64,000 bases of DNA from Ovis canadensis (lineage: Eukaryota > Chordata > Mammalia > Artiodactyla > Bovidae): positions 141,734,501 to 141,798,500 of the forward strand of contig NC_091727.1 in assembly GCF_042477335.2 (NCBI RefSeq), given 5' to 3'. The position numbers and the translations under genes were made by a program. The notes beneath the pieces were generated by a model. That model ran no database searches. It saw nothing but the letters and a program-made list of their open reading frames with translations, and was not told where the DNA came from. Positions 7,209-64,000 of this stretch are shown in pieces. How positions within the stretch are numbered: position 1 is the first letter of the stretch; every line of letters starts with the position of its first letter.

Positions 7209-7422
7209 AGGTGAAAGTGTTATTTGCTCAATCGTGTCTGACTCTTGGCGACCTCATAGACTGTAGCCTGTCAGACTCCTTTGTCTATGGGGTTTTCCAA
7301 GCAAGAATACTCGAGTGGGTAGCCATCCCCTTCTCCAGGGGGTCTTCCTGACCCAGGGATTGAACCTGGTTCTCCTGCATTACAGGCAGATTCTTTACCA
7401 ACTGAGCCACCAGGGAAGCCCT
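7209..7422 (-). mobile_element. Bov-tA SINE
   Basis: Same arrangement as the copy 500 bp upstream, from tgaaagtgttatttgctcaatcg to gagccaccagggaagccct. This copy is closer to the consensus. Confidence 0.9.
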
Positions 7423-9980: not shown

Positions 9981-12900
9981 GCAGGCGGCTGCGGCCAGCA
10001 CACTAAGCCCAGCCGAGAGGAGCTACACCACCCCCGATGTCAGGGGCAGCAGCCTAGAGTGCCAGGCTGCAATGGCACAGTAACAGCCAAGAGGAACTAC
10101 CCTGCATCCGAGGTCAGGGGCAAATGCTGAGAGGAGCTACCCCACATCCAAGACCAGGGACAGCGGCCAGGAGGAGCTACGCTGCATCCGAGTCCAGGAG
10201 CGGTGGCCAGGAGGAGTAACCCCACATCCAAGGAGCGGTGGCTGAGTGGGTGAAGGAGGGCCTAGAGGAGCCATCCCACGTTGAAGGTCAGGAAGGGTGG
10301 CGGTGAGGAGATACCACTCGTCCAGGGTAAGGAGCAGTGGCTGTGCTTTGCTGGAACAGCCTTAAAGAGATACCCCATGCCCAAGGTAAGAGAAACCCAA
10401 GTAAGATGGTAGGTGTTGCAAGAGGGCATCAGAGGGCAGACACAATGAAACCATACTCACAGAAAACTAGTCAATCTAATCACACTAGGACCACAGTCTT
10501 ATCTAACTCAATGAAACTAAGCCATGCCCGCAGGGCAATCCAAGACTGGCGGGTCATGGTGCAGAGGTCTGACAGAATGTGGTCCACTGGAGAAGGGAAT
10601 GGCAAACCACTTCAGTATTCTTGCGTTGAGAACCCCATGAACAATATGAAAAGGCAAAATGATAGGATACTGAAAGAGGAATGCCCCAGGTCATTAGGTG
10701 CCCAATATGCTACTGGAGATCAGTGGAGAAATAACAATAGAAAGAATGAAGGGATGAAGCCAAAGCAAAAACAATACCCAGCTGTGGATGTGACTGGTGA
10801 TAGAAGTAAGGTCGGATGCTGTAAAGAGCAATATTGCATAAGAACCTGGACTGTCAGGTCCATGAATCAAGGCAAATTGGAAGTGGTCAAACAAGAGATG
10901 GCAAGAGTGAATGTCAACATTCTAGGAATCAGCAAACTAAAATGGACTGGAATGGGTGAATTTAACTCAGATGACCATTATATCTACTACTGTGGGCAGG
11001 AATCCCTCAGAAGGAATGGAGTAGCCATCATGGTCAACAAAAGAGTCCAAAATGCAGTACTTGGATGCAATCTCAAAAACAACAGAATGATCTCTGGTCG
11101 TCTCCAAGGCAAACCATTCAATATCACAATAATCCAAGTCTATGGCCTGCCAGTAATGCTGAAGAAGCTGAAGTTGAACGGTTCTATGAAGAGCTGCAAG
11201 ACCTTTTAGAACTAACACCTAAAAAGGCTGTCCTTTTCATTATAGGGGACTGGAATGCAAAAGTAGAAAGATATGAAACACCTGGAGTAACAGGCAAATT
11301 TGGCTTTGGAATGTGGAATGAAGCAGGGCAAAGACTAATAGAGTTTTTCCAAGAAAATGCACTGGTCATAGCAAACACCCTCTTCCAACAACACAAGAGA
11401 AGACTCTACACATAGACATCACCAGATGGTCAACACGGAAATCAGATTGATTATATTCTTTCCATCAAAGATGGAGAAGCTCTATACAGTCAACAAAAAC
11501 AAGACCAGGAGCTGACTGTGGCTCAGATCATGAACTCCTTATTGCAAAATTCAGACTTAAATTGCAGAAAGTAGGGAAAACCATTAGACCATTCAGGTAT
11601 GACCTAAATAAAATCCCTTATGATTATACAGTGGAAGTGAGAAATAGATTTAAGGGACTAGATCTGATAGATAGAGTGCCTGATGAACTAAGGAATGAGG
11701 TTTGTGACATTGTACAGGAGACAGGGATCAAGACCATCTGCATGGAAAAGAAACACAAAAAAGCAAAATGGCTGTCTGGGGAGGCCTTACAAATAGCTGT
11801 GAAAAAAAGAGAAGCGAAAGCAAAGGAGAAACAGAAAGCTATAAGCATCGGAATGCAGATTTCCAAAAAATAGCAAGAGATAAGAAAGCCTTCTTCAGCA
11901 ATCAATGTAAAGAAATAGAGGAAAACAACAGAATGGGAAAGACTAGAAATGTCTTCAAGAAAATTAGAGATACCAAGGGAACATTTCATGCAATCATGGA
12001 CTCGATAAAGGGCAGAAATGGTATGGACCTAGCAGAAGCAGAAGATATTAAGAAGACGTGGCAAGAATACACAAAAGAACTGTACAAAAAAGATTTTCAC
12101 GACCCAGATAATCACGATGAGGTGATCACTCATCTAGAGCCAGACATCTTGGAATGTGAAGTCAAGTGGGCCTTAGAAAGCATCACTACGAACAAAGCTA
12201 GGGGAGGTGATGGAATTCCAGTTGAGCTGTTTCAAATCCTGAAAGATGATGCTGTGAAAGGGCTGCACTCAATATGCCAGCAAATTTGGAAAACTCAGCA
12301 GTGGCCAAAGCACAGGAAAAGGTCAGTTTTCATTCCAATCTCAAACAAAGTCAATGCCAAAGAATGCTCAAACTACCACACAATTGCACTCATCTCACAT
12401 GCTAGTAAAGTAACACTCAAAGTTCTCCAAGCCAGGCTTCAGCAATACGTGAACCGTGAACTTCCAGATGTTCAAGCTGGTTTTAGAAAATGCAGAGGAA
12501 CCAGAGTTCCAATTGTCAGCGTCCGCTGGATCATGGAAAAAGCAAGAGAGGTCCAGAAAAACATCTCTTTCTGAATGATTGACTATGCCAAAGCCTTTGA
12601 CTGTGTGGATCACAATCAACTGTGGAAAATTCTGAAAGAGATGGGAATACCACACCACCTGACCTGCCTCTTGAGAAACCTGTATGCAGGTCAGGAAGCA
12701 ACAGTTAGAACTGGACATGGAACAACAGACTGTTTCCAAATAGGAAAAGGAGTACGTCAAGGCTGTAAATTGTCACCCTGCTTATTTAACTTATATGAAG
12801 AGTACATCATGAGAAACGCTGGACTGGAAGAAACACAAGCTGGAATCAAGATTGCTGAGAGAAATATCAATAGCCTCAGATATGCAGATGACACCAACCT

Positions 12901-13672
12901 TATGTCAGAAAGTCAAGAGGAACTAAAAAGTTTCTTGATGAAAGTTAAAAAGGAGAGTGAAAAATTTGGCTTAAAGCTCAACATTCAGAAAATGAAGATC
13001 ATGGCATCCGGTCCCATCACTTCATGGCAAATAGATGGGGAAACAGTGGAAACAGTGTCAGACTTTATTTTGGGGGGCTCCAAAATCACTGCAGATGGTG
13101 ACTGCAGCCATGAAATTAAAAGACACTTACTCCTTGGAAGGAAAGCTATGATCAACCTAGATAGCATATTCAAAAGCAGAGACATTACTTTGCCGGCTAA
13201 GATCCATCTAGTCAAGGCTATGGTTTTTCCTGTGGTCATGTATGGATGTGACAGTTGGACTGTGAAGAAGGCTGAATGCCGAACAATTGATGCTTTTGAA
13301 CTGTGGTGTTGGAGAAGACTCTTGTGAGTCCCTTGGACTGCAAGGAGTTCCAACCAGTCCATTCTGAAGGAGATCAACCCTGGGATTTCTTTGGAAGGAA
13401 TGATGTTAAAGCTGAAACTCCATTACTCTGGCCACCTCATGCGAAGAGTTGACTCATTGGCAAAGACTCTGATGCTGGGAGGGATTGGGGGCAGGAGGAG
13501 AAGGGGCCGATAGAGGATGAGATGGCTGGATGGCATCACGGACTCGATGGACGCGAATCTGAGTGAACTCCAGGAGTTGGTGATGGACAGGGAAGCCTGG
13601 CGTGTTGCGATTCATGGGGTTTCAAGGAGTCGGAGATGACTGAGCGACTGGGCTGAACTGAACTGAACTGAA
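9981..13672 (+). mobile_element. Nearly full-length BovB (RTE) LINE, inactivated
   Basis: This is the most complete BovB here, about 3.7 kb. It has a GC-rich tandem-repeat 5' region (about 9990-10330), then a broken single ORF: endonuclease domain (10337-11415, with TWTVRSMNQGKLEVVKQE and FIIGDWNAKVE), linker (11562-11873) and reverse transcriptase (11768-13327). The RT keeps the YADD metal-binding motif at 12881-12892 and the FDCVDHNQLWKIL block. Inactivating lesions include at least two frame changes before 11873 and in-frame TGA codons at 12572-12574 (at the usual Cys of the SFC.IDYAKAF block) and 13325-13327. The 3' end is the usual gactgagcgactg(aactg)n. Confidence 0.93.
9990..10330 (+). 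repeat. GC-rich tandem repeats of the BovB 5' region
   Basis: Imperfect units of roughly 45 bp containing gagaggagctaccc, catccgaggtcagg and gcagcggcc recur about five times. The same array begins the BovB copy at 35484. It probably contains the element's promoter; that role is inference from position. Confidence 0.7.
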
Positions 13673-14799: not shown

Positions 14800-16512
14800 A
14801 TGGCAATATTTAAGAAAATTAGAGATACCAAGGGAACATTTCATGCAAAGATGGGCTTGATAAAGGACAGAAATAGTCTGGACCTAACAGAAGCAGAAGA
14901 TATTAAGAAGAGGTGGCAAGAATACACAGAAGAACTGTACAAAAAACATCTTCATGACCCAGATAATCTTGATGATGTGATCACTAATCTAGAGCCAGAC
15001 ATCTTGGAATGTGAAGTCAAGTTGGCCTTAGAAAGCATCACTACGAACAAAGCTAGGGGAGGTGATGGAATTCCAGTTGATCTGATTCAAATCCTGAAAG
15101 ATGATGCTGTGAAAGGGCTGTACTCAGTATGCCAGCAAATTTGGAAAACTCAGCAGTGGCCACAGGACTGGAAAAGGTCAGTGTTCATTCCAATTCCAAA
15201 GAAAGGCAATACCAAAGAATGCTCAAACTACCGCACAATTGCACTCATCTCACACGTTATTAAGTAATGCACAAAATTCTCCAAGCCAGACTTCAGCAAT
15301 ACATGACCCGTGAACTCCCTGATGTTCAAGCTGGTTTTAGAAAATGCAGAGGAACCAGAGATCAAATTGTCAACATCCGCTGGATCATGAAAAAAGCAAG
15401 AGAGTTCCAGAAAAACATCTATTTCTTCTTGATTGACTATGCCAAAGCCTTTGACTGTGTGGATCACAATAAACTGTGGAAAATTCTTCAAGAGATGGGA
15501 ATACCAGATCACCTGACCTGCCTCTTGAGAAATCTGTATGCAGGCCAGGAAGCAACAGCTAGAACTGGACAGGGAACAACAGACTGGTTCCAAATAGGAA
15601 AAGGAGTATGTCAAGGCTGCATATTCACCCTGCTTATTTAATTTCTATGCAGAGTACATCAAGAAAAAGGCTGGACTGGAAGAAACACAAGCTGGAATCA
15701 AGATTGCCGGGAGAAATATCAATAACCTCAGATATGTAGATGACACCACCCTTAGGGCAGAAAGTGAAGAGGAACTAAAAAGCCTCTTGATGAAAGTTAA
15801 AGAGGAGAGCGAAAATGTTGGCTTAAAGCTCAACATTCAGAAAACAAAAATCATGACATCCGGTCCCATCACTTCATGGGAAATAGATGGGGAAACAGTG
15901 GAAACAGTGTCAGACTTTATTTTGGGGGGCTCCAAAATCACTGAAGATGGTGACTGCAGCTATTAAATTAAAATACACTTAGTCCTTGGAAGAAAAGTTA
16001 TGACCAACCTAGACAGCATATTCAAAAGCAGAGACATTACTTTGCCGACTAAGGCCCGTCTAGTCAAAGCTATGGTTTTTCCTGTGGTCATGTATGGATG
16101 TGAGAGTTGGACTGTGAAGAAAGCTCAGTGCCAAAGAATTGATGCTTTTGAACTGTGGTGTTGGAGAAGACTCTTGAGAGTCCCTTGGACTGCAAGGAGA
16201 TCCAACCAGTCCATTGTGAAGGAGATCAACCCTGGGATTTCTTTGGAAGGAATGATGCTAAAGCTGAAGCTCCAGTACTTTGGCCACCTCATGCGAAGAG
16301 TTGACTCATTGGAAAAGACTCTGATGCTGGGAGGGATTGGGGGCAGGAAAAGTAGGGGACGACAGAGGATGAGATGGCTGGATGGCATCACGGACTCGAT
16401 GGACGTGAATCTGAGTGAACTCCGGGAGATGGTGATGGACAGGGAGGCCTGGCGTTTTGTGATTCATGGGGTCGCAAAGAGTCGGTCACGGCTGAGCGAC
16501 TGAACTGAACTC
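14800..16512 (+). mobile_element. BovB LINE, 5'-truncated
   Basis: It starts within the linker (KKIRDTKGTFHAKMG) and covers the RT to the 3' end. Open segments are 14779-15267, 15267-15641 and 16000-16503, separated by frameshifts near 15265 and 15630 and a TAA at 15963-15965. The RT active-site motif is YVDD (15733-15744) instead of YADD. The C-terminal segment (16000-16503) is open to the natural end RSRLSD. Confidence 0.92.
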
Positions 16513-17792: not shown

Positions 17793-17813
17793 CACCCTTA
17801 AGATACCTTTAGA

Positions 17814-18042
17814 CTAGCGCCATGGTGGCTCAGACAGTAAAGTGTCTGCCTGCAATATGGGAGACCCGGGTTCAATCCCTGGGTTGGGAAGCTCCCCTGG
17901 AGAAGGAAATGGCAATCCACTCCAGTACTCTTGCTTGGAAAATCCCATGGATGGAGGAGCCTGGTAGTCTATGGTCCATGGGGTCGCTAAGGGGTCACAG
18001 AGTCGGACACGACTAAGGGAGTTCACTTTCACTTTCACTTTT
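17814..18042 (+). mobile_element. Bov-tA SINE with target-site duplication
   Basis: Runs from catggtggctcagacagtaaag to ggacacgactaagggagttcactttcac. CACCCTTAAGATA is duplicated at 17793-17805 and 18043-18055, and the match continues imperfectly for 8 more bases. Confidence 0.92.
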
Positions 18043-18078
18043 CACCCTTAAGATATCCCTAGAGTCTACCACACTGAA

Positions 18079-18088
18079 GGCTTTAGCT
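18079..18088. repeat. Target-site duplication, 3' side of ID4 retrocopy
   Basis: GGCTTTAGCT lies directly beside the T-rich (A-tail complement) end of the retrocopy and is identical to the repeat at 19907-19916. Confidence 0.85.
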
Positions 18089-18129
18089 ATTTTCTTTTAT
18101 TTTATTTTATTTTTTGGACTCAGAACAAG

Positions 18130-18135
18130 TTTATT
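18130..18135 (-). terminator. Polyadenylation signal AATAAA of ID4 retrocopy
   Basis: The plus strand reads TTTATT. The signal sits 14 nt upstream of the A-rich tail, the normal spacing for cleavage and polyadenylation of the parental transcript. Confidence 0.85.
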
Positions 18136-18486
18136 TTGTGATTAAACATCTCATGCAGTCATGCAGGATCACTAGCTATAACTGTTACTTCCGAGTCTAC
18201 CGGCCACCAGGCAAAACAAAAGCAAATTTAGAGCCAGACCAAACAGAAAAGACATTCAAGATTATCAAGAGCTCTTCAACTGAGCTGAAAAATAATTTTC
18301 CAAAAGAAATATTCCCACAGATTAAAAAAAAACACACACATAATATTTACAAAAAATATTTAATTAAAAATATCTTATAATTACAGTAGTCTATTAAAGC
18401 ATATACTTTCTCACACTTATAGAGCATCTCTATATATACATGGTATGAAATGTCACTCAGTTATCTATACAATATGTAACATTCTT

Positions 18487-18543
18487 GCAGGGAACACAAA
18501 GTTCCCTGCCTCCGTATAAACATCTATTTTAAACAATAGATGT
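18487..18543 (-). other. Two adjacent perfect hairpins in the ID4 3'UTR copy
   Basis: Stem 1 is GCAGGGAAC (18487-18495) with GTTCCCTGC (18501-18509) and a 5-nt loop. Stem 2 is ACATCTATT (18520-18528) with AATAGATGT (18535-18543) and a 6-nt loop. Both are perfect 9-bp stems 10 nt apart. Their role in the parental mRNA, if any, is inference. Confidence 0.55.
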
Positions 18544-18949
18544 CAGAAAAAAAGAAAAATATCTACAATGCTCTGGTATATTAGTAAAGCTTCAAAACAA
18601 AAATTGAGCTCCTTGGTCACAAAGTCGGTTTCTAACAGTCGGATTTACTCTTGATTGTTCTATTTATCAGTCCTGTCACACTTAAGCTTAAAAGTTTAAC
18701 TGCACCTCCAAAAAACACAAAAAATGTACAATTCACAGTGGTTATAAATGGGACAAAAGAGAATACGTATGTAGAATGTTTATGAACGTGCAAAAAAAAA
18801 TTCAACAAAGATGAAAAGTTTTATTTTTCTTCCCTGTCTCTTGGAATGACGAATGAAACGTTTCTAAGATTTGCTGATCTTTTTGTTACATTTTTCCTTC
18901 CTCCGGTTGGCTTTTTCTCTAACTTCTGCTCTCTCCCCCTCCCTCTCTA

Positions 18950-19906
18950 GGGCTCCTGGCTCGGGCTCAGGCGGCCGCACACCTGGGACGCGCGGCTCAG
19001 CGGCAGAGAATGCTGTCGCCCTGCTTGTTCACCGCGCCGGCCGGGTCGGTGTTGAGCGCGGTGAGCGGGGTCCGCGGCGGCGCGGCCGGGCAGGTCCCGG
19101 CCGGGAGGTGCGGCGGCGCGGGCGGCGGCGGCTGCCTCAGCAGAGCCGGGTGCGTCTCCAGCGCCAGCTGCAGAACCAGGATGTAGTCGATAACGTGCCG
19201 CAGGAGCTCTACTTTGCTGACTTTCTTGTTGGGCGGGATGGTGGGCACTAGCCTCCGCAGGCGGCTGTAGCAGTCGTTCATATCGCACTGCAGGCACAGA
19301 GCCGGCTCGTCGGCGGCCGCCTCGGCCGCCTTGCAGCGCGCGGCCGCCGCCGCCGCCGCCGCGGCCGCCGAACCGCCCAGGCTGTGGCCGTGCTCGGCCA
19401 GGCAGCGCAGCGCCAGCTCGCCGCCGCCGCCGCCGCAGCCCGACGGCGCCTTGCGGCCCGAGGGGCGCACCGGGCTCACCGCCTTCATCGCGCGCGCACT
19501 GCGCCCTGCGCCCTGCGCGAGCGGACCCGCTTGGGCGAGCGAGCGAGGCAGGCAAGCTCCGGCCCCCTCCCCTTGTTGGCGGCCGGCTCCGCTCCCCTCT
19601 CCTTCGCGCCCCGCGCTCCTGCTCTGCGCTCGGGGCACCGGAAAGCTCCAGGCGATCGCGCGCCCCACAATTGACCGGAGAATCTCTCTGGGCGACAGCG
19701 GGCGACACTCGGCCGGGACCAAAAGGCAAGGAAAAAAAAAAAAAAATCAAAGGCACCGGAAAGAAAGCAGCCCACCGGGCGCCCGAGTCACTCCCTTCGG
19801 ACCTCCGACTACAGCCAGCCCGCCGCCGCCGCCGCCGCGCTCCCCCAGGCCCGAGGTGTCCCCAGCTCCTATCTCAGACTCACAACCGCACCTCCTCTCC
19901 GCTCCC
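18950..19906. promoter_or_regulatory. CpG-rich island carried by the ID4 retrocopy
   Basis: The coding and 5'UTR part is dense in CpG (GCG, CCG, CGGCGG runs), whereas the flanks on both sides are AT-rich and CpG-poor. In the parental gene this region is the CpG island spanning exon 1. Whether it acts as a promoter here cannot be judged from sequence. Confidence 0.6.
18997..19488 (-). CDS. ID4 (retrocopy): ID4-like HLH protein, intact ORF of an intronless retrocopy
   Basis: This ORF of 163 codons plus TGA encodes a protein near-identical to ID4, which is about 161 residues in human. ID4 is a helix-loop-helix protein without a basic DNA-binding region; it sequesters E-proteins such as TCF3 and TCF12 and blocks differentiation programmes. 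Visible in order: the N-terminus [17 protein letters not shown], a five-Gly run (15-23 region), a ten-Ala tract (41-50), helix 1 (about 69-81), loop with PTIPPNKK, helix 2 (about 91-111), a Pro-rich segment (118-139), and the family C-terminus ending DSILCR. The ATG at 19488 is chosen because it matches the ID4 N-terminus; the frame stays open to 19722 through the 5'UTR. The coding intron that ID genes carry after the HLH is absent ([11 protein letters not shown] is continuous). Odd: helix 2 has Leu95, Arg97 and Val105 where I recall Ile, Gln and Asp in ID4, and Leu128 replaces a His. Identity is near certain; expression is unknown. Confidence 0.93.
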
Positions 19907-19916
19907 GGCTTTAGCT
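19907..19916. repeat. Target-site duplication, 5' side of ID4 retrocopy
   Basis: GGCTTTAGCT abuts the GC-rich 5' end. Read on the minus strand the junction is CTTTAAAAGCTAAAGCC, so the duplication begins at TTT|AAAAG, the preferred nicking motif of L1 endonuclease. Confidence 0.85.
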
Positions 19917-21738
19917 TTTAAAGCAGTTATTCCATCAGAGGGATCATGACTTAATTTGCTTCCAATAAATTCCTAGCTAAATCGATAGAAACATCATCTA
20001 ACATAGGAACTTGAAATGTGTAGAAAGAGAGAGGATGCAATAAATACTGGTAATGGGGAAGTGAGAGGGTGCCAGGCTGGCCCTTTCACACTTTTCTAGA
20101 ATTAACTACGCATGTGCATGAATAACTCAGTGTACGTAGGATAGAGAGCTTTGTGGCCTCCTTACATATGGAAGTCCTCTTGGTGACCTAAGGTATCATC
20201 TCCATGTCACCTCAACTTGCAGTATGATAAAAAAAAATAAAGTATCCTGCTAAAAATTTTATTTAACTAGCTTCAATTCACAATAGTGTTAAGTTTAGCA
20301 GATCCTTGTGACACCTGCTCTGCCTTTGCCAAATTTTAATTACATGCAGCTCTGCTTAGCAAAAGACAAGCATTTTTCTGCATTTGGTGGTGGGAGAAAC
20401 ACTGACTGCTTGGGGACTAGAGTGAGCTCAGCAAGCAAATATCTTTGCGTCTTAAAAAATGCTAGCAGAAAATCACCAATAAAAAGCAGCATACAAAACA
20501 AGAAACAAAACAGAGATAATCTCTTAAAGAAGTGTGGCATGAAATATTTGCTGAAATTCAAATACCTCTCTTCTTCATCTGTACTAGGTTAAATTCCTTT
20601 GAGCAGAAAAAGATGCTACTCTGTTAGTGAAATTTATTTAATGTGACATATTACATCTTTGGGGGAACAGTAGAGAAGGAAATTAAAGCATTCTTAAATC
20701 ATTACCACTGGCTGTGCAATCCTGAAGCCCTGGCAGAATGCGAGAGTGAATCTCAAAAAGAAAATAGAAATAAAGGATTGTAGGTCAAAGTTTTAATGGA
20801 ACAAATCCTGAATCTGAGTACTTACAAACTGAATGACATGTAGTTTCTTTTGTTTAGTTTTAGTTCAAAAAGAAACAAAAATTTTATAGTCATTTTAGCA
20901 GTTACCTTTATTATGTAGTTTTCTTATTTGTGTATAAGGAGAATAAACTAGAAGATGGTAGGTTGTTTCTCTAATAAAAATGCCATTTAAAATAAATCTT
21001 GTATCAGAAGAAGTAGACAAGGTTAAACAGCACTTCTCCTCTCCCCAGTAAGACAGTAAATAATAAAGCTTCAGGAGATTTGAGAAGAGAAGGTACTTTG
21101 GAGGAGGACTGGTTAATCTATGTCTTAATTTGTTACTCCCTGTTTTCCTATTGTAAACAGTAGTGAAAATCATTTTAACAGGGGGCTCTGAACATGCATT
21201 TATAATTATGGAAACTGCATTGTACTCCAAAATTGGACTTGAAGGTTGAAGATCCAAGAAATACTGTGGCTGGTGGCAGCCTTAAAAAATAACATTAAAT
21301 GGGATACTTGCAGAGCATACATATGTGAAGCATACAGTGCAAGACCATTGTTGAGTGATGAGGCCTGTGGCAACCTGGAGAATGAAATGTATGTTTGAAG
21401 ACAGTCAAATTCAGATTCTTAAGAAAATAATGGATTGGCCAAACAAGTGAATCTGTGGGCTAATACCCACCAACAGTTGCTGTTTCACCTTGTGCCCTGC
21501 GACCTGGAAAATAAATGAATAAACATTTCATTTATAAAAGTGACTTTGAAAATCCTATGTGGGCCAGGAACGTGATCCTGAACTTTAACTTTAGGAAGCT
21601 CCTGAGTAGTTCTCTATTATGAGTTGGCAAAGGTATCATAAATGAGTTGATATTTAACCTAGAAATTGAGAGATGGTTTTTTACAGATAATGAATTGGAT
21701 TTTGAATCAGAGCTTGAGTAAAGTCAAAGAGGCAAGGA
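19917..21738. other. Single-copy-like intergenic DNA upstream of the ID4 retrocopy
   Basis: AT-rich, with no recognised repeats or coding exons. Any native regulation of the retrocopy would have to come from here or from its own 5'UTR. Confidence 0.45.
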
Positions 21739-44618: not shown

Positions 44619-45611
44619 CAGTTCAGTTCAGTTCAGTCACTCCATTGTGTCTGACTCTTTGTAACCCCATGAATCGCAGCACACCAGGCCTCCCTGTCCA
44701 TCACCGACTCCCAGAGTTCACTCAGACTCACGTCCATTGAGTCAGTGATGCCATAATGACATCTGATCCTCTGTCATCCCCTTCTCCTCCTGCCCGCAAT
44801 CCCTCCCAGCGTCAGAGTCTTTCCAATGAGTCAACTCTTCGCATGAGGTGGCCAAAGTACTGGAGTTTCAGCTTCAGCATTATTCCCTCCAAAGAAATCC
44901 CAGGGCTGATCTTCAGAATGGACTGGTTTGATCTCCTCGCAGTCCAAGGGACTCTCAAGAGTCTTCTCCAACACCACAGTTCCAAAGCTTCAATTCTTCA
45001 GCACTCAGCCTTCTTCACAGTCCAACTCTCACATCCATACATGACCACAAGAAAAACCATAGCCTTGACTAGATGGACCTTTGTTGGAAAAGTAATGTCT
45101 CTGCTTTTCAATATGCTATCTAGGTTGGTCATAACTTTTCTTCCAAGGAGTAAGCGTCTTTTAATTTCATGGCTGCAGTCACCATCTGCAGTGATTTTGG
45201 AGCCCCCAAAAATGAAGTCTGACACTGTTTCCACTCTTTCCCCATCTATTTCCCATGAAGTGATGGGACCAGATGCCGTGATCTTTGTTTTCTGGATGGT
45301 GAGCTTTAAGCCAACTTTTTCACTCTCCACTTTCACTTTCATCAAGAGGCTTTTTAGTTCCTCTTCACTTTCTGCCATAAGGGTGGTGTCATCTGCATAT
45401 CTGAGGTTATCAATATTTCTCCTGGCAATCTTGATTCCAGCTTGTGTTTCTTCCAGTCCAGAGTTTCTCATGATGTACTCTGCATAGAAGTTAATTAAGC
45501 AGGGTAACAATAAACAGCCTTGACGTACTCTTTTTCCTATTTGGAACCAGTCTGTTGTTCCATGTCCAGTTCTAACTGTTGCTTCCTGACCTGCATATAG
45601 GCTTCTCAAGA
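44619..45611 (-). mobile_element. BovB 3' fragment with relatively intact RT C-terminal half
   Basis: An open minus-strand frame (about 45611 down to 44998) encodes RT from LRSLYAGQEATVRTGHGTTD through RQGC and YADDTTLMAES to [12 protein letters not shown]. The YADD motif is preserved. A small replacement at about 44752-44762 disrupts the 3' end. GTTTGGGCTT is duplicated at 44609-44618 and 45612-45621. Confidence 0.93.
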
Positions 45612-45621
45612 GTTTGGGCTT

Positions 45622-46019
45622 AGGGAGAGTAAAAGCAAAGTTAGATTTATTTTGATGTTCTTGTATTGAATATATTGAAACCAACTGTTAGATGCACTTT
45701 GCAATATGATCTTGAATGTGCAGCCACTAGTTTCTTTTTGTACAGTCTGGTTTGATTTCAGAGTAGCATTACACATGGAAAGAATTGCCTACTGTCTAAC
45801 TCTGGCAAAATTACAAATTCAGTAACTTTAACACAATGAATGTTTTGTTTTTGTTTGATTTTTTACACTCATTAATTTAATTCTGTGAAAAGATTCACAT
45901 GGCTCAACAATGAACAACTATAAACAAAGTGAAAAGTCTTCTGTTAACTCCTGTACCTAGGTCTTACCTCACATTTCACATTTAACTGTTGCTAATTTGT
46001 TTATTCTATAGTTTTCCAT
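45622..46019. other. Intergenic, no gene seen
   Basis: AT-rich single-copy-like. Confidence 0.4.
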
Positions 46020-47676: not shown

Positions 47677-47895
47677 GAAAGTGAAAGTGAAAGTGAAGTC
47701 GCTCAGTCATGTCCAACTCTTTGCAACCCCGTGACTGTAGTCCACCAGGCTCCTCTGCCCATGGGATTCTTCCGGCAAGAATACTGGAGTGGGTTGCCAT
47801 TTCCTTCTCCAGGGGATCTTCCCGACCCAGGGATTGAACCCAGGTCTCCTGCATTGCAGGCAGACTCTTTAACCTCTGAACCACCAGGGAAGCCA
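47677..47895 (-). mobile_element. Bov-tA SINE with target-site duplication
   Basis: (gaaagt)n gaagtcgctcagtcatgtcc through ctgaaccaccagggaagcca. GTGAATCACTGT is duplicated at 47665-47676 and 47896-47907. Confidence 0.95.
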
Positions 47896-48975: not shown

Positions 48976-51900
48976 TGATATAATTTGGCCTTGGATACAG
49001 AATGAAGCAGGGCAAAGGCTAATAGAGTTTTGCCAAGAAAATGTACTGGTCATAGCAAACATCCTCTTCCAACAACACAAGAGAAGACTCTACACATGGA
49101 CATCACCAGATGGTCAACACAAAAATTAGATTGATTACATTCTTTGCAGCCAAAGGTGGAGAAGCTCTATATAGTCAGCAAAAACAAGACTGGGAGCTGA
49201 CTGTGGCTCAGATCATGAGCTCCTTATTGCCAAATTCGGACTTAAATTGAAGAAAGTATGGAAAAAATCTAGACCACTCAGGTATGACTTAAATCAAGTC
49301 CCTTATGATTATACAGTGGAAGTGAGAAATAGATTTAAGGGACTAGATCTGATAGATAGAGTGCCTGATGAACTATGGACGAAGGTTCATGACATTGTAC
49401 AGGACACAGGGATCAAGACCATCCCCAAGAAAAAGAAATGCAAAAAAGCAAAATGGCTGTGTGAGGGGGCCTTACAAATAGTTGTGAAAAGAAGATAAGT
49501 GAAAAGCAAAGAAGTAAAGGAAAGATTACCCATTTGAATGCAGAGTTCCAAAGAATAGCAAGAAGAGATAAGAAAGCCTTATACAGTGATCAATGCAAAG
49601 AAATAGAGGAAAACAATAAAATAGGAAAGACTAGAGATCTCAAGAAAATTAGAGATATCAAGGGAATATTTAATGCAAAGATGGGCTCAATAAAGAACAG
49701 AAAAGGTATGGAACTAAAAGAAGTAAAAGTTATTAAGAGGTGGCAAAAATACACAGAAGAACTGTACAAAAAAGACCTTCATGACCCAGATAATCATGAT
49801 GGTGTGATCACTCATCTAGAGCCAGACATCCTGAAATGTGAAGTCAAGTGGGCCTTAGAAAGCATCACTACGAACAAAGCTAGTGGAGGTGATGGAATTC
49901 TGCCAGGGTCCAGCCCCGGTGGATCCAGGGAATTCGAAGCAGGGACGGCGTTGGCAAGGAAAGACTTATTTATTTACTAATATAAGATTAGATTAAGAAA
50001 CAATAATATAGTAGGAAAATTAAGTAGAGAAAGAGGGCTGAATAACTTGGATTATGTGGAAAGCCAATAAAGTTCCAGACAAGGAACTTGAACCATCTAC
50101 GTTAGGCCACCGGCGTCTGTTTGAATATCGGAGAGTGCCCCACCTTGGGCTCTCTCTCTTATGGATCTTAGAAGCCAGGACAAATAAGTAGACATGATGA
50201 GCCTCCCTGCTCCAGATGGGAATTCAGCCGGAAAAAGAAAAGAACGACATGGGGAAGCCCAGCATCAGTGCAAGACTCCAAAAACTATTTTCAAAATCAG
50301 CTTATATACTCCAAGTTGTTCATAAAGAAATAGAGTTATGCAGGGGCAGCAGTTCTGACCCTCATTGAGTCAAGGCTTTCTTTTTGCATACCCTCCCATA
50401 TACAAAAGGTCTCAGGTGGTTTACATTATCTTCTGGCCAAGAGGCTTGTTAACATTTTTATGGCTCTCTTCCTGGATAATTGTCCAGAAAACTCCTTTTC
50501 CCTAGAAGTGTTTTTTCTTTACTCTGCATCACCCTCAAAGTACAAAAAATTTACATTCCTATAGAACAAAGGTGCAGGGGGTTATAACAAAGAAAGAACT
50601 TAAAGATCTAGTGTTGCTAATACCAGGTCTACTACCTGTTTTTCTATATACCAACTATACCTAAAAATAAAAGATATGAAAATTTGGCAGCAAGTATTGG
50701 CTCAACAACTGAAACCTTTAATCAGTCCTATTCTAATAATTTTGACTCCTCGGAAGCCTCGACATTCCTAGGATGTTTTATGGTTCCTGTGCCTCCCACG
50801 GTCCGGAGGCCTCAAACAATCACATGCACAGCTTTATGAGTCCTGCAGGCAGGCTAGAAAGCCATCAGAGGGGTTTTTGGATTGAAACACTCATATTATG
50901 CCCAGGAGATTTATTATCTAAAAGCTCTAATTTTTTTTTTTCCAGAAAAAGGTGGTGAGAGTCCCCTGGTAATGACAGAAGAGTAGGTGTAAAGCATAAC
51001 ATAGTAAAGCAGGCAGATTCTGGTCTTGGGGGTGGATGCTCAGGAATTTCCAGGGGGAATCCCTGAAGCTTATCACATCCTTGCGTTTTGTCAGGCTTCC
51101 TTCCACATGACCTTGTCACAGGTGGGATTCCTCATGCTGGCTCTCGGCAGAATTTCAGTTGAGCTATTTCTCATCCTGAAAGACGATGCTGTGAAAGTGC
51201 TGCACTCAAAGTGCCAGCAAATTTGGAAAACTCAGCAGTGGCCACAGGACTCGAATAGGTCAGTTTTCATTCCAATTCCAAAGAAAGGCAATGCCAAAGA
51301 ATGCTCAAACTACCACACAATTGCACTCATCTCACATGCTAGTAAAGTAATGCTTAAAATTCTCTAAGCCATGTTTCATCAATACGTGAACCATGAACTT
51401 CCAGATGTTCAAGCCAGTTTTAAAAAACGCAGAAAAACCAGAGATCAAATTGCCAACATCACTGGATCATCAAAAAAGCAAGAGAGTTCGGGAAAAAAAT
51501 ATCTATTTCTGCTTTATTGATCATGCCAAAGCCTTTGACTGTGTGGATCACAATAAACTGTGGAAATTTCTGAAAGAGATGGGAATACCAGACCACCTGA
51601 CCTGCCTCTTGAGATATCTGTATGCAGGTCAGGAAGCAACAGTTAGAACTGGACATGGAACAATAGACTGGTTCCAAATAGGAAAAGGAGTATGTCAAGG
51701 CTGTATATTGTCCCCCTGCTTATTTAACTTCTATGCAGAGTACATCATGAGAAATGCTGGGGTGGAGGAAGCACAAGCTGGAATCAAGATTGCCAGGAGA
51801 AATATTAGTAAATTCAGATACGCAGATGACACTACCTTGATGGCAGAAAGTGCAGAACTAAAGAACTTCTTGAGGAAAGTGAAAGAGGAGAGTGAAAAAC

Positions 51901-52601
51901 TTGGCTTAAAGCTCAACATTCAGAAAACTAAGATCATGGAATCTGGTCCCATCACTTCATGGTAAATAGATGGGAAAACAGTGGAAACAGTGGATGACTT
52001 TAATTTTCTGGGCTCCAAAATCACTGCAGATGGTGATTGTAACCATGAAATTAAAAGACACCAACTCCTTGGAAGGAAAGTTATGAACAACCTAAACAGC
52101 ATATTAAAAAGCAGAGACATTACTTTGTCAACAAAGGTCTGTTTAGTAAAGGCTATGGTTTTTCCAGTAGTCATGTATGGATGTGAGAGTTGGACCGTAA
52201 AGAAGGCTGAGCACCGAAGAATTGATGCTTTTAAACTGTGGTGTTGGAGAAGACACTTGAGTGTCCCTTGGACTGCAAGATCCATCCATTACATCCTAAA
52301 GGAGATCAGTCCTGGGTGTACATTAGAAGGAGTGATGTTGAAGCTGAAACTCCGATACTTTCACCACCTGGTACGAAGTGCTGACTCTTTTGAAAAGACC
52401 ATTATGCTGAGAAAGATTGAGGGCAGGAGGAGAAAGGGACAATAGAGAATGAGATGGTTGGATAGCATCACTGAGTCAATGGGAATGAGTATATGCAAAC
52501 TCTGGGAGTTGGTGATTGAGAGGGAGGCCTCATGTGCTGAGGTTAATGGGATCACAAAGAGTCGGACATGCCTGAGCAATTGAACTGAACTGAACTGAAC
52601 T
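48976..52601 (+). mobile_element. BovB LINE, 5'-truncated, interrupted by a solo LTR
   Basis: Begins inside the endonuclease (ttggccttggatacagaatgaagc). Open pieces: 49247-49498, 49534-49900 (linker), 51150-51367 (RT start after the LTR) and 51393-51965 (RT with RYADDTTLMAES). The C-terminal part is at 51981-52445. Frameshifts separate them, and a TAA at 51963-51965 interrupts PITSW. The LTR lies at 49901-51149. Confidence 0.93.
49901..51149 (-). mobile_element. Solo LTR of the same ERV2/ERVK-type group, inserted in BovB
   Basis: Starts TGCCAGGGTCCAGCCCCGG (reverse of the LTR end seen at 6350-6370) and ends CTCTCGGCA. The flanks are GAATTC (49895-49900) and GAATTT (51150-51155), a 6-bp target-site duplication with one difference. 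The BovB frame continues across it. A TATATAA (minus) at 50302-50308 marks the promoter. Length 1249 bp, about 380 bp shorter than the copy at 4740. Confidence 0.92.
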
Positions 52602-52621
52602 AAGCTCAGATTAATGTGATT

Positions 52622-54516
52622 AGGGAGGCCTTCCAAATAGCTGTGAAAAGAAGAGAGGTGAAAAGCAAAGGAGAAAAGGAAAGATACAAGCATCTGAATG
52701 CAGAGTTCCAAAGAATAGCAAGAAGAGATAAGAAAGCCTTCTTCAATGATCAATGCAAAGAAATAGAGGAAAACAACAGAATGGGAAAGACTAGAGATCA
52801 CTTCAAGAAAATTAGAGATACCAAGGGAACATTTCATGCAAAGATGGGCTCAATAAAGGACAGAAATGGTATGGACCTAAGAGAAGCAGAAGATATTAAG
52901 AAGAGGTGGCAAGAATACACAGAAGAACTGTACAAAAAGGATTTTCACGACCCAGATAATCATGATGATGTGATCACTAATCTAGAGCCAGACATCTTGG
53001 AATGTGAAGTCAAGTTGGCCTTAGAAAGCATCACTACGAACAAAGCTAGGGGAGGTGATGGAATTCCAGTTGAGCTGATTCAAATCGTGAAAGATGATGC
53101 TGTGAAAGGGCTGTACTCAATATGCCAGCAAATTTGGAAAACTCAGCAGTGGCCACAGGACTGGAAAAGGTCAGTGTTCATTCCAATTCCAAAGAAAGGC
53201 AATGCCAAAGAATGCTCAAACTACTGCACAATTGCACTCATCTCACATGCTAGTAAAGTAATGCTCAAAATTCTCCAAGCCAGGCTTCAGCAATATGTGA
53301 ACTGTGAACTCCCTGATGTTCAAGCTGGTTGTAGAAAAGGCAGAGGAACCAGAGATCAAATTGCCAACAACCGCTGGATCATGGAAAAAGCAAGAGAATT
53401 CCAGAAAAACATCTCTTTCTGCTTGATTGACTATGCCAAAGCCTTTGACTGTGTGGATCACAATAAACTGTGAAAAATTCTTCAAGAGATGGGAATACCA
53501 GACCACCTCACCTGCCTCTTGAGAAACCTGTATGCAGGTCAGGAAGCAACAGTTAGAACAGGACATGGAACAACAGACTGGTTCCAAATAGGAAAAGGAA
53601 TACATCAAGGCTGTATATTGTCATCCTGCTTATTTAACTTATATGCAGAGTACATCATGAGAAACGCTGGACTGGAAGAACATAAGCTGGAATCAAGATT
53701 GCTGGGAGAAATATCAATAACCTAAGATATGCAGATGACATCACCCTTATGGGAGAAAGTGAAGAGGAGCTAAAAAGCCTAAAATGCCTCTTGATGAAAG
53801 TGAAAGAGGAGAGCGAAAAAGTTGCCTTAAAGCTCAACACTCAGAAAACGAAGATTATGGCATCTGGTCCCATCACTACATGGGAAATAGATGGGGAAAC
53901 AGTAGAAACAATATCAGACTTTATTTTGGGGGGCTCCAAAATCACTGAAGATGGTGACTGCAGCCATGAAATTAAAAGACGCTTACTCCTTGGAAGAAAA
54001 ATTATGACAAACCTAGATAATATATTCAAAAGCAGAGACATTACTTTGCCGACTAAGGTCCGTCTAGTCAAGGCTATGGTTTTTGCTGTTGTCATGTATG
54101 CATGTGAGAGTTGGACTGTGAAGAAGGCAGAGCGCTAAAGAATTGATGCTTTTGAACTGTGGTGTTGGATAAGACTCTTGAGAGTCCCTTGGAGTGCAAG
54201 GAGATCCAACCAGTCTATTCTGAAGGAGATCAACCCTGGGATTTCTTTGGAAGGAGTAATGCTAAAGCTGAAGCTCCAGTACTTTGGCCACCTCATGCAA
54301 AGAGTTGAGTCATTGGAAAAGACTCTGATGCTGGGAGGCATTGGGGCAGGAGGAGAAGGGGACAACCGAGAATGAGATGGCTGGATGGCATCACTGACTC
54401 GATGGACGTGAGTCTGAGTGAACTCCGGGAGTTGGTGATGGACAGGGAGGCCTGGTGTGCTGTGATTCATAAGGTCGCAAAGAGTCGCACATGACTAAGT
54501 GACTGAACTGAACTGA
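52622..54516 (+). mobile_element. BovB LINE, 5'-truncated
   Basis: The longest continuous frame here is 52616-53473: linker plus RT N-terminal half through NISFCLIDYAKAFDCVDHNKL. It ends at a TGA where the consensus has TGG (KLW). Downstream pieces are 53489-53725, 53749-54138 and 54178-54375. The YADD-coding text is present at about 53727-53740 in a shifted frame (tatgcagatgacatc, a Thr-to-Ile change after it). Ends (ctgaa)n. Confidence 0.93.
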
Positions 54517-62504: not shown

Positions 62505-62884
62505 ATCTTCCTTTTTATTTATTTATTTATTTTTTTACTTTACAATATTGTATTGCTTTTGCCATACATCAACATGAATCTGCCACGGGTGTACATGTGT
62601 TCCCAATCCTGAACCCCCCTCCCATATCCCTCCCCATATCATCCCTCTGGGTCATCCCAGTGTACCAGCCCCAAGCATCCTGTATCCTGCATCGAACCTA
62701 GACTGGCGATTCATTTCTTATATGATATTATACATGTTTCAATGCCATTCTCCTAAATCATCCCACACTTTCACTCTCCCACAGAGTCCAAAAGACTGTT
62801 CTATACCTCTGTGCCTCTTTTGCTGTCTCGCATACAGGGTTATCGTTACCATCTTTCTAAATCCATATATATGCTTTAGTATAC
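62505..62884 (-). mobile_element. Young ruminant L1 3' end, interrupted by an LTR
   Basis: Reverse complement of the L1 3' end also seen at 31496-32033 (here ttgcttttgccatacatcaacatgaatctgcc, gaacccccctcccatatccctcccc). It stops at gctttagtatac where an LTR begins. Confidence 0.88.
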
Positions 62885-64000
62885 TGCCAGGAGCCTGTGT
62901 GAGGAATCCCACCTGTGACAAAGGTCATGAGGAAGGAAGCCCGACAAAACGCAAAGGTGTAATCCGGCTTTGGGGGTTCCCCCTGGGTTTTCCTGAACAT
63001 CTACCACCCCCCCCCCAAAAAAAAAAAACCCAGAGTCTGCCTGCTTTATTACTGTGCTTTCCACTCTTCAAACATTCTCTGGAAAAAAGTCAACTCAGGG
63101 CTTCCGTCTCCTGCATATGAAAGGAATGTTTCAGCTCAAACCCCTTTGATGGCTCTCTAACTTGCCTGACAGGTTCCCTGGACTTTTACAATTTATGAAT
63201 TGCCTACAGCCCCCCAACTGCAAGAGGCACAAAGCTTAAAGCATCTTAAAGATACAGAGCCTTTTCTAAAGAGCTAAAAATTGTATTGGTGACGGGTTTT
63301 CACTGTTGACTCAATGACTGCTGCCAGGCCTCCATATTCTTTATCTTTTAGGCACCTGGGAAGATATTAATCAATGTAATCAGGATGCAGAAATAGGAAT
63401 ATAGTAGTTTTGATGTTAGCAACACTAGATTTTGTATTAATTACTTTTCTCTTTGTTATAAATCACTGTACTCCTTTTACTTTTTATAAATTGTTGTATC
63501 CTTGCCATGTAAGACTGTAACTTTATTTAGTGCTTTCTGAGAGTGACACCAGACTTTGGGAAGAACAGCATTTTAAGACAAATAAGTCTTCTGGTTGACA
63601 AACTCTTATCAGAAAAGGGCCGTAAAATGTTAATTGGCCTTCTGGCTGGAAGATGAAGTAAATCACCTAAGACTTGTGTATACAACTAAGTATGCAGAGA
63701 AAAAGCAGGGTCTCAATAAGAGTCAGGGCTGCTGACACTGCATAATTTTGTATTACTCATTCATCTCTATGTACAATCAAAAAGTATAAAAAGCCTTCTG
63801 AACAATAATGGATGGACCAGTTTCTTGAACTAGTTTCTTGGAAATCTGGTTTCCCCAGTGTCTCTCTCTCTCTCTCTTTCTCTCTCTCCCTCCCTCTCCT
63901 TTTCTGACTGAATTCCCATCTGGAGTGGGGAGGCTCGCCATGTATACTAACTTGCCCTGGCTTTTAAGTCCCGTGAGAGAGGGAGCCCAAGGCGGGGCAC
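62885..64000 (+). mobile_element. ERV2/ERVK-type LTR, cut by the window end
   Basis: Starts TGCCAGGAGCCTGTGTGAGG, colinear with the LTR at 4740. A TATAAAA at 63785-63791 is followed by a CT-rich tract (63862-63899) and the ctgaattcccatctggag text shared with 6174-6194. The 3' end is outside, so it may be a solo LTR or the left end of a provirus. The six bases before it are GTATAC (62879-62884). Confidence 0.88.

Follow-up and report, generated by a model that had tools for sequence, protein, structure and literature searches.

The target-site duplications of L1-made retrocopies are 7-20 bp long, and the consensus site of the L1 endonuclease is of the TT|AAAA type. L1-made processed pseudogenes and retrogenes, as they are described in part of PMC3747384, carry no introns, have a poly(A) end, and display both a target-site duplication and the cut site. 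All four features are shared by the ID4 sequence reported here. No difference from L1-made processed pseudogenes was found, and the copy is full-length and open, as young ones can be. As a retrocopy it is ordinary: young, processed, and full-length. ID4 is discussed as a spermatogonial stem cell gene in cattle fertility work, and in the accessible part of that paper it is named only as a candidate gene (PMC11720523). No report of an ID4 retrocopy, retrogene, or pseudogene was found in the open-licence PMC literature, in which relevance was judged by the title and the start of the abstract. The significance of the copy is mainly practical: in bovids, reads, primers, and guide RNAs meant for ID4 can be drawn to a near-identical copy without introns.

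Anatomy and setting of the copy

On its minus strand, the window, which is the whole 64,000-nucleotide stretch of DNA that was analysed, contains a copy of a spliced ID4 mRNA that has no introns (Table 1). A preliminary description had given this unit without a strand, and all of its marks were found on the minus strand. The unit does lie at 18079-19916 as that description had it, but this range takes in both 10-bp duplications and is wider than the body of the copy. The intronless open ID4 frame, the 5'UTR of about 418 nt, the 3'UTR, the AATAAA, and the A-rich tail that had been described were all recovered, and their measured lengths are given in the table. Inside the 3'UTR there are a further AATAAA at 18825-18820 and an ATTAAA at 18364-18359.

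Table 1. Positions of the ID4 copy, its parts, and the repeats around it in the window
Feature	Position	Strand	Details
RVT_1 stretches	12575-13324, 15264-15638, 44998-45687 (minus), 51390-51962, 52604-53470		Pfam
SINE	17806-18042		17793-18055 with duplications; copies of CACCCTTAAGATA, a perfect duplication of 13 bp, begin at 17793 and 18043
3' target-site duplication	18079-18088	-	AGCTAAAGCC; counting the last three bases of the tail, 13 bp with one mismatch
Retrocopy body	18089-19906	-
A-rich tail	18089-18115	-	27 nt, in part changed to AAAAT units
3'UTR	18116-18996	-	881 nt
Polyadenylation signal AATAAA	18130-18135	-	14 nt ahead of the tail
Closed exon 2/exon 3 junction, 3'UTR (inferred from reading frames)	18982-18983	-	CCCAG|GTGTGCGGCC
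Open reading frame	18997-19488	-	163 codons + TGA; ID4 protein, 5 Gly, Arg97, Val105
Closed exon 1/exon 2 junction	19041-19042	-	GACCCG|GCCGGC; goat and others have NTDP-VR there
HLH domain	19168-19287	-	Pfam PF00010, residues 68-107, E = 8.9e-15; DNA positions derived from residues
5'UTR of the copied mRNA	19489-19906	-	418 nt, first bases GGGAGCGGAGAGGAGG
5' target-site duplication	19907-19919	-	AAAAGCTAAAGCC when read in copy sense, CTTT ahead (L1-type TTT|AAAA cut site)

The HLH of the copy scores over the Pfam cut-off and matches positions 14 to 53 of the 53 positions of the PF00010 profile. The unmatched first part of the profile is presumably the basic region, which would make the domain an HLH without a basic region. 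Compared with the bovid-like sequence P0002, the copy apparently has 7 nt extra directly 5' of the ATG (19489-19506), and the P0002 reading frame into the ATG matches P0004, P0019, and P0021 (both comparisons read by hand). The extra nucleotides are perhaps an insertion private to the copy or to the species.

Both exon junctions appear closed. The first was read in 130 proteins, which comprise the results of two protein searches (the first contributing its best 120 of 248 matches) and the window's own protein. NTDP is followed by AGA in 29 of them, the window's among these, and by VR in 27; the NTDP motif is absent from 48, and the remaining 26 have other readings. The VR type includes goat P0009 and the bovid-like P0010 and P0011, while argali P0008 leaves ID4 after NTDP for a different predicted sequence. 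From these readings we infer that VR after NTDP marks the start of the intron in parental ID4. Dolphin P0018 and macaque P0038 have NTDP-VCG instead, and P0018 goes on as VCGRLSPSQE, a string that is also encoded in the window, in another frame, after ...CCCAG. Because the dolphin isoform joins NTDP straight to VCGRLSPSQE, the second junction would also be closed in the window, a conclusion drawn from reading frames rather than from a gene model. When the unit was examined for an intron, both putative junctions were closed and the frame reached the spliced end.

Further evidence for retrotransposition comes from the ends of the unit. The duplication had been described as a perfect one of 10 bp. 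An exact 10-bp duplication of AGCTAAAGCC is indeed present at 18079-18088 and 19907-19916, but 13 bp with one mismatch describes it better, and a repeat finder pairs the two ends of the unit as a 13-bp repeat (92%, one mismatch). Two random 25-nt places of the window shared a word of at least 10 in 13 of 20,000 draws, a total that includes draws skipped for lying <100 bases apart. On the 5' side the insertion site reads CTTT|AAAAG, in agreement with the TTT|AAAAG noted before. Once the insert and one of the duplications are removed, TTT|AAAA is left, as expected of the site before insertion. The unit combines the marks of an L1 retrocopy: introns are absent, a tail follows the polyadenylation signal, and a duplication and a TT|AAAA-type site are present.

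The surrounding DNA is repeat-rich, as the preliminary description had stated, with RVT_1 stretches and a SINE in the window. RVT_1 matched five of the 10 open stretches tested; one had a match to an endonuclease family below the cut-off, and the other four had none. We take the RVT_1 stretches to be BovB LINEs, and the element at 17806-18042 to be of the SINE type. The duplication of the SINE ends 23 bp short of the 3' duplication of the retrocopy, and the SINE is a separate insertion near the 3' end. ARAGORN called tRNA genes at 7344-7416 (tRNA-Tyr) and 47818-47890 on the minus strand (tRNA-Cys), and Rfam also matches a tRNA at 7346-7414. Both calls sit in SINE-like sequence, which is presumably a tRNA-derived ruminant SINE, and they are probably not tRNA genes. 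An open stretch of 180 codons at 62578-63117 has no Pfam match. A search for relatives of the window in IMG/VR gave 151 pattern matches, none of which was confirmed.

Parental gene and related sequences

The protein collection used for comparison was clustered at 90% identity. Leu95 occurs in seven of the 120 proteins listed (the best 120 of 248), namely P0002, P0006, P0008-P0011, and P0031, and of the four named carriers, two are from argali, one is from argali x sheep, and one is from goat. On the evidence of the Leu95 carriers and the repeats, the source of the copy is a bovid ID4. Up to NTDP, the copy is identical to goat and argali ID4 except for one Gly fewer (five compared to six), Q97R, and D105V. 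It differs from the bovid ID4 gene in having no introns and in its genomic setting: the goat P0009 and argali P0008 entries sit on 52-Mb contigs, and a table in PMC11720523, a source seen in part, places cattle ID4 on BTA23. The absence of introns, the tail, the duplication, and the private substitutions uphold the earlier view that this is a locus separate from ID4. Likewise, the anatomy and the closest proteins agree with the identification of a full-length L1-type ID4 retrocopy in a bovid.

Two further sequences resemble the copy. P0006 (MJG53_020267), a protein of 156 aa from argali x sheep, is encoded on a 145.9-Mb contig in an open frame; it has five Gly and L30P, and its alanine run is shorter by seven residues. 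P0031 (MG293_005098; argali, 136.6-Mb contig) has five Gly, A45V, E61Q, and a frameshift, and its end TPTRPAR fits the shifted spliced sequence when read by hand. Both would be intronless because their contigs are other than the 52-Mb contigs of ID4 and, in the case of P0031, also because of the shifted end. They are thus probable further ID4 retrocopies in sheep assemblies. With the copy in the window they have in common a bovid ID4 sequence, Leu95, five Gly, and a position on non-52-Mb contigs, whereas the private changes differ. P0002, which lies on a 5-kb contig, is intron-free, has six Gly, and lacks all of the private changes; the contig may represent an mRNA, or else a further copy.

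Age and coding constraint

The region at 18956-19906 has a GC content of 0.73 and a CpG observed/expected ratio (o/e) of 1.04 (130 CpGs in 951 bp). The o/e of the flanks of about 1 kb is 0.15-0.16, and the most GC-rich 500-base step outside the unit within the window has a GC content of 0.588 and an o/e of 0.30. Two or three non-silent base changes separate the copy from the goat and argali protein. Because the non-silent changes are few and the CpG density is high, the sequence points to a young copy. The retained o/e of 1.04 fits youth but would be compatible, too, with an island that is active and unmethylated.

Q97R and D105V are private to the copy, and both are located in helix 2. Among the best 120 of 248 matches, position 97 is Q in all 120 and position 105 is D in all 118 that align there, and 40 of the 163 columns consist to at least 99% of one residue. 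The copy changes two of these columns, those of Q97 and D105, and so does not keep all invariant ID4 residues. Two random missense changes would both fall in near-invariant columns with a chance of about 6% (40/163 squared). Changes at two invariant residues were on this account rejected as proof of lost constraint, and their position in near-invariant columns is suggestive only. With only two substitutions and one codon difference, constraint is neither shown nor excluded.

Does the open frame require selection? In a model that weights each transition four times each transversion, random substitutions in the frame are missense in a fraction of 0.67 and nonsense in 0.015, or 0.60 and 0.005 if CpG changes are weighted 10-fold. 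Assuming 0.08 frameshifts per substitution, the probability of an open frame is 0.83 after two substitutions and 0.57 after six. An open frame is thus likely at such low divergence, and selection is not needed to explain it.

The second protein search, with the overlapping frame, scored only the 7976 candidates sharing most words and returned 11 matches, including one marmot and one macaque entry; none represents bovid coding DNA. Seven sequences and P0002 were aligned, whereas P0125, P0130, and P0038 were set aside; helix 2 is spanned by six of these seven, all with the ancestral residues there. Six sequences have neither the Gly run nor the Leu95 codon of bovids, and a hand reading of their overlapping frame is compatible with CAG as codon 97 and GAC as codon 105. 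On that reading, the copy would have reached GTT at codon 105 in two changes, except if the parental bovid codon is GAT.

Pseudogene, retrogene, or shared older copy

The copy is very probably a young processed pseudogene that was made by L1 from a bovid ID4 mRNA and has been drifting without constraint. A spliced and polyadenylated bovid ID4 mRNA would have been reverse-transcribed and inserted at TTT|AAAA in repeat-rich DNA; the anatomy is a direct observation, and L1 machinery would be the agent. The mRNA-like 5' end suggests that the parental upstream promoter was presumably not carried along. The frame would still be open because few mutations have occurred so far, and the helix 2 substitutions would represent drift. 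One of the two probable sister copies, P0031, is frameshifted and the other, P0006, is open but lacks seven residues, which agrees with a pseudogene; on the other hand, P0006 is itself an ID4 sequence with an open frame, placed in a sheep-hybrid assembly on a contig that is not one of 52 Mb, and this speaks against one. It is improbable that the copy is a functional retrogene, which would use the CpG island that it carries, or a promoter nearby, for its transcription and would encode an ID4-like protein that binds E proteins. Such a role is consistent with a frame that has kept its start, its stop, and an HLH domain over the Pfam cut-off, and with the kept CpG island. Other HLH proteins, MyoD among them, have Arg at the position of Q97 and non-acidic residues at that of D105, so folding need not be abolished by the two changes. 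By alignment count, Q97 and D105 of ID4 correspond to Q66 and D74 of ID2. They are not among the ID2 contacts named in PMC3484135, as far as that source was seen: the hydrogen-bond partners are Y43, L49, Q76, and Y71, the ion ligands are K47, V50, I53, and Q55, and the strings Q66 and D74 are absent from its main text. However, both changes hit residues that are invariant in the ID4 matches listed (the best 120 of 248), and P0031 has a frameshift. It is very improbable that the copy is an expressed bovid-specific ID4 retrogene in which Arg97 and Val105 of helix 2 would have changed the choice of partner, the male germ line being one candidate setting because ID4 acts in spermatogonial stem cells. 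Near-identity with bovid ID4 could also be explained if the window held parental ID4, or if an ID4 cDNA-like sequence had been placed here through an assembly error. This is barely credible, because introns are absent, because the unit has a tail and a duplication and carries two private substitutions besides one codon difference, and because of the contig and chromosome placements of goat, argali, and cattle ID4 described above. The missing introns refute the parental gene as the identity of the unit.

A young pseudogene is compatible with an older shared origin, and both can hold. The copy could be an orthologue or a segmental (DNA) duplicate of an older bovid retrocopy, together with P0006 and/or P0031, a possibility that we regard as rather doubtful. 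It would account for the five Gly of the window, P0006, and P0031, compared to six in P0002 and P0008-P0011. However, the length of the GGC run changes easily, the intron-free P0002 has six Gly, and the window, P0006, and P0031 have no other private change in common. The sheep entries suggest that ID4 copies arose or were kept more than once in bovids. Outside the bovids, an ID4-like protein with Ile95, P0032, has a shifted end ...STPTRPAR as in argali P0031, and it perhaps comes from a further intronless ID4 copy with a frameshift, in a different mammal.
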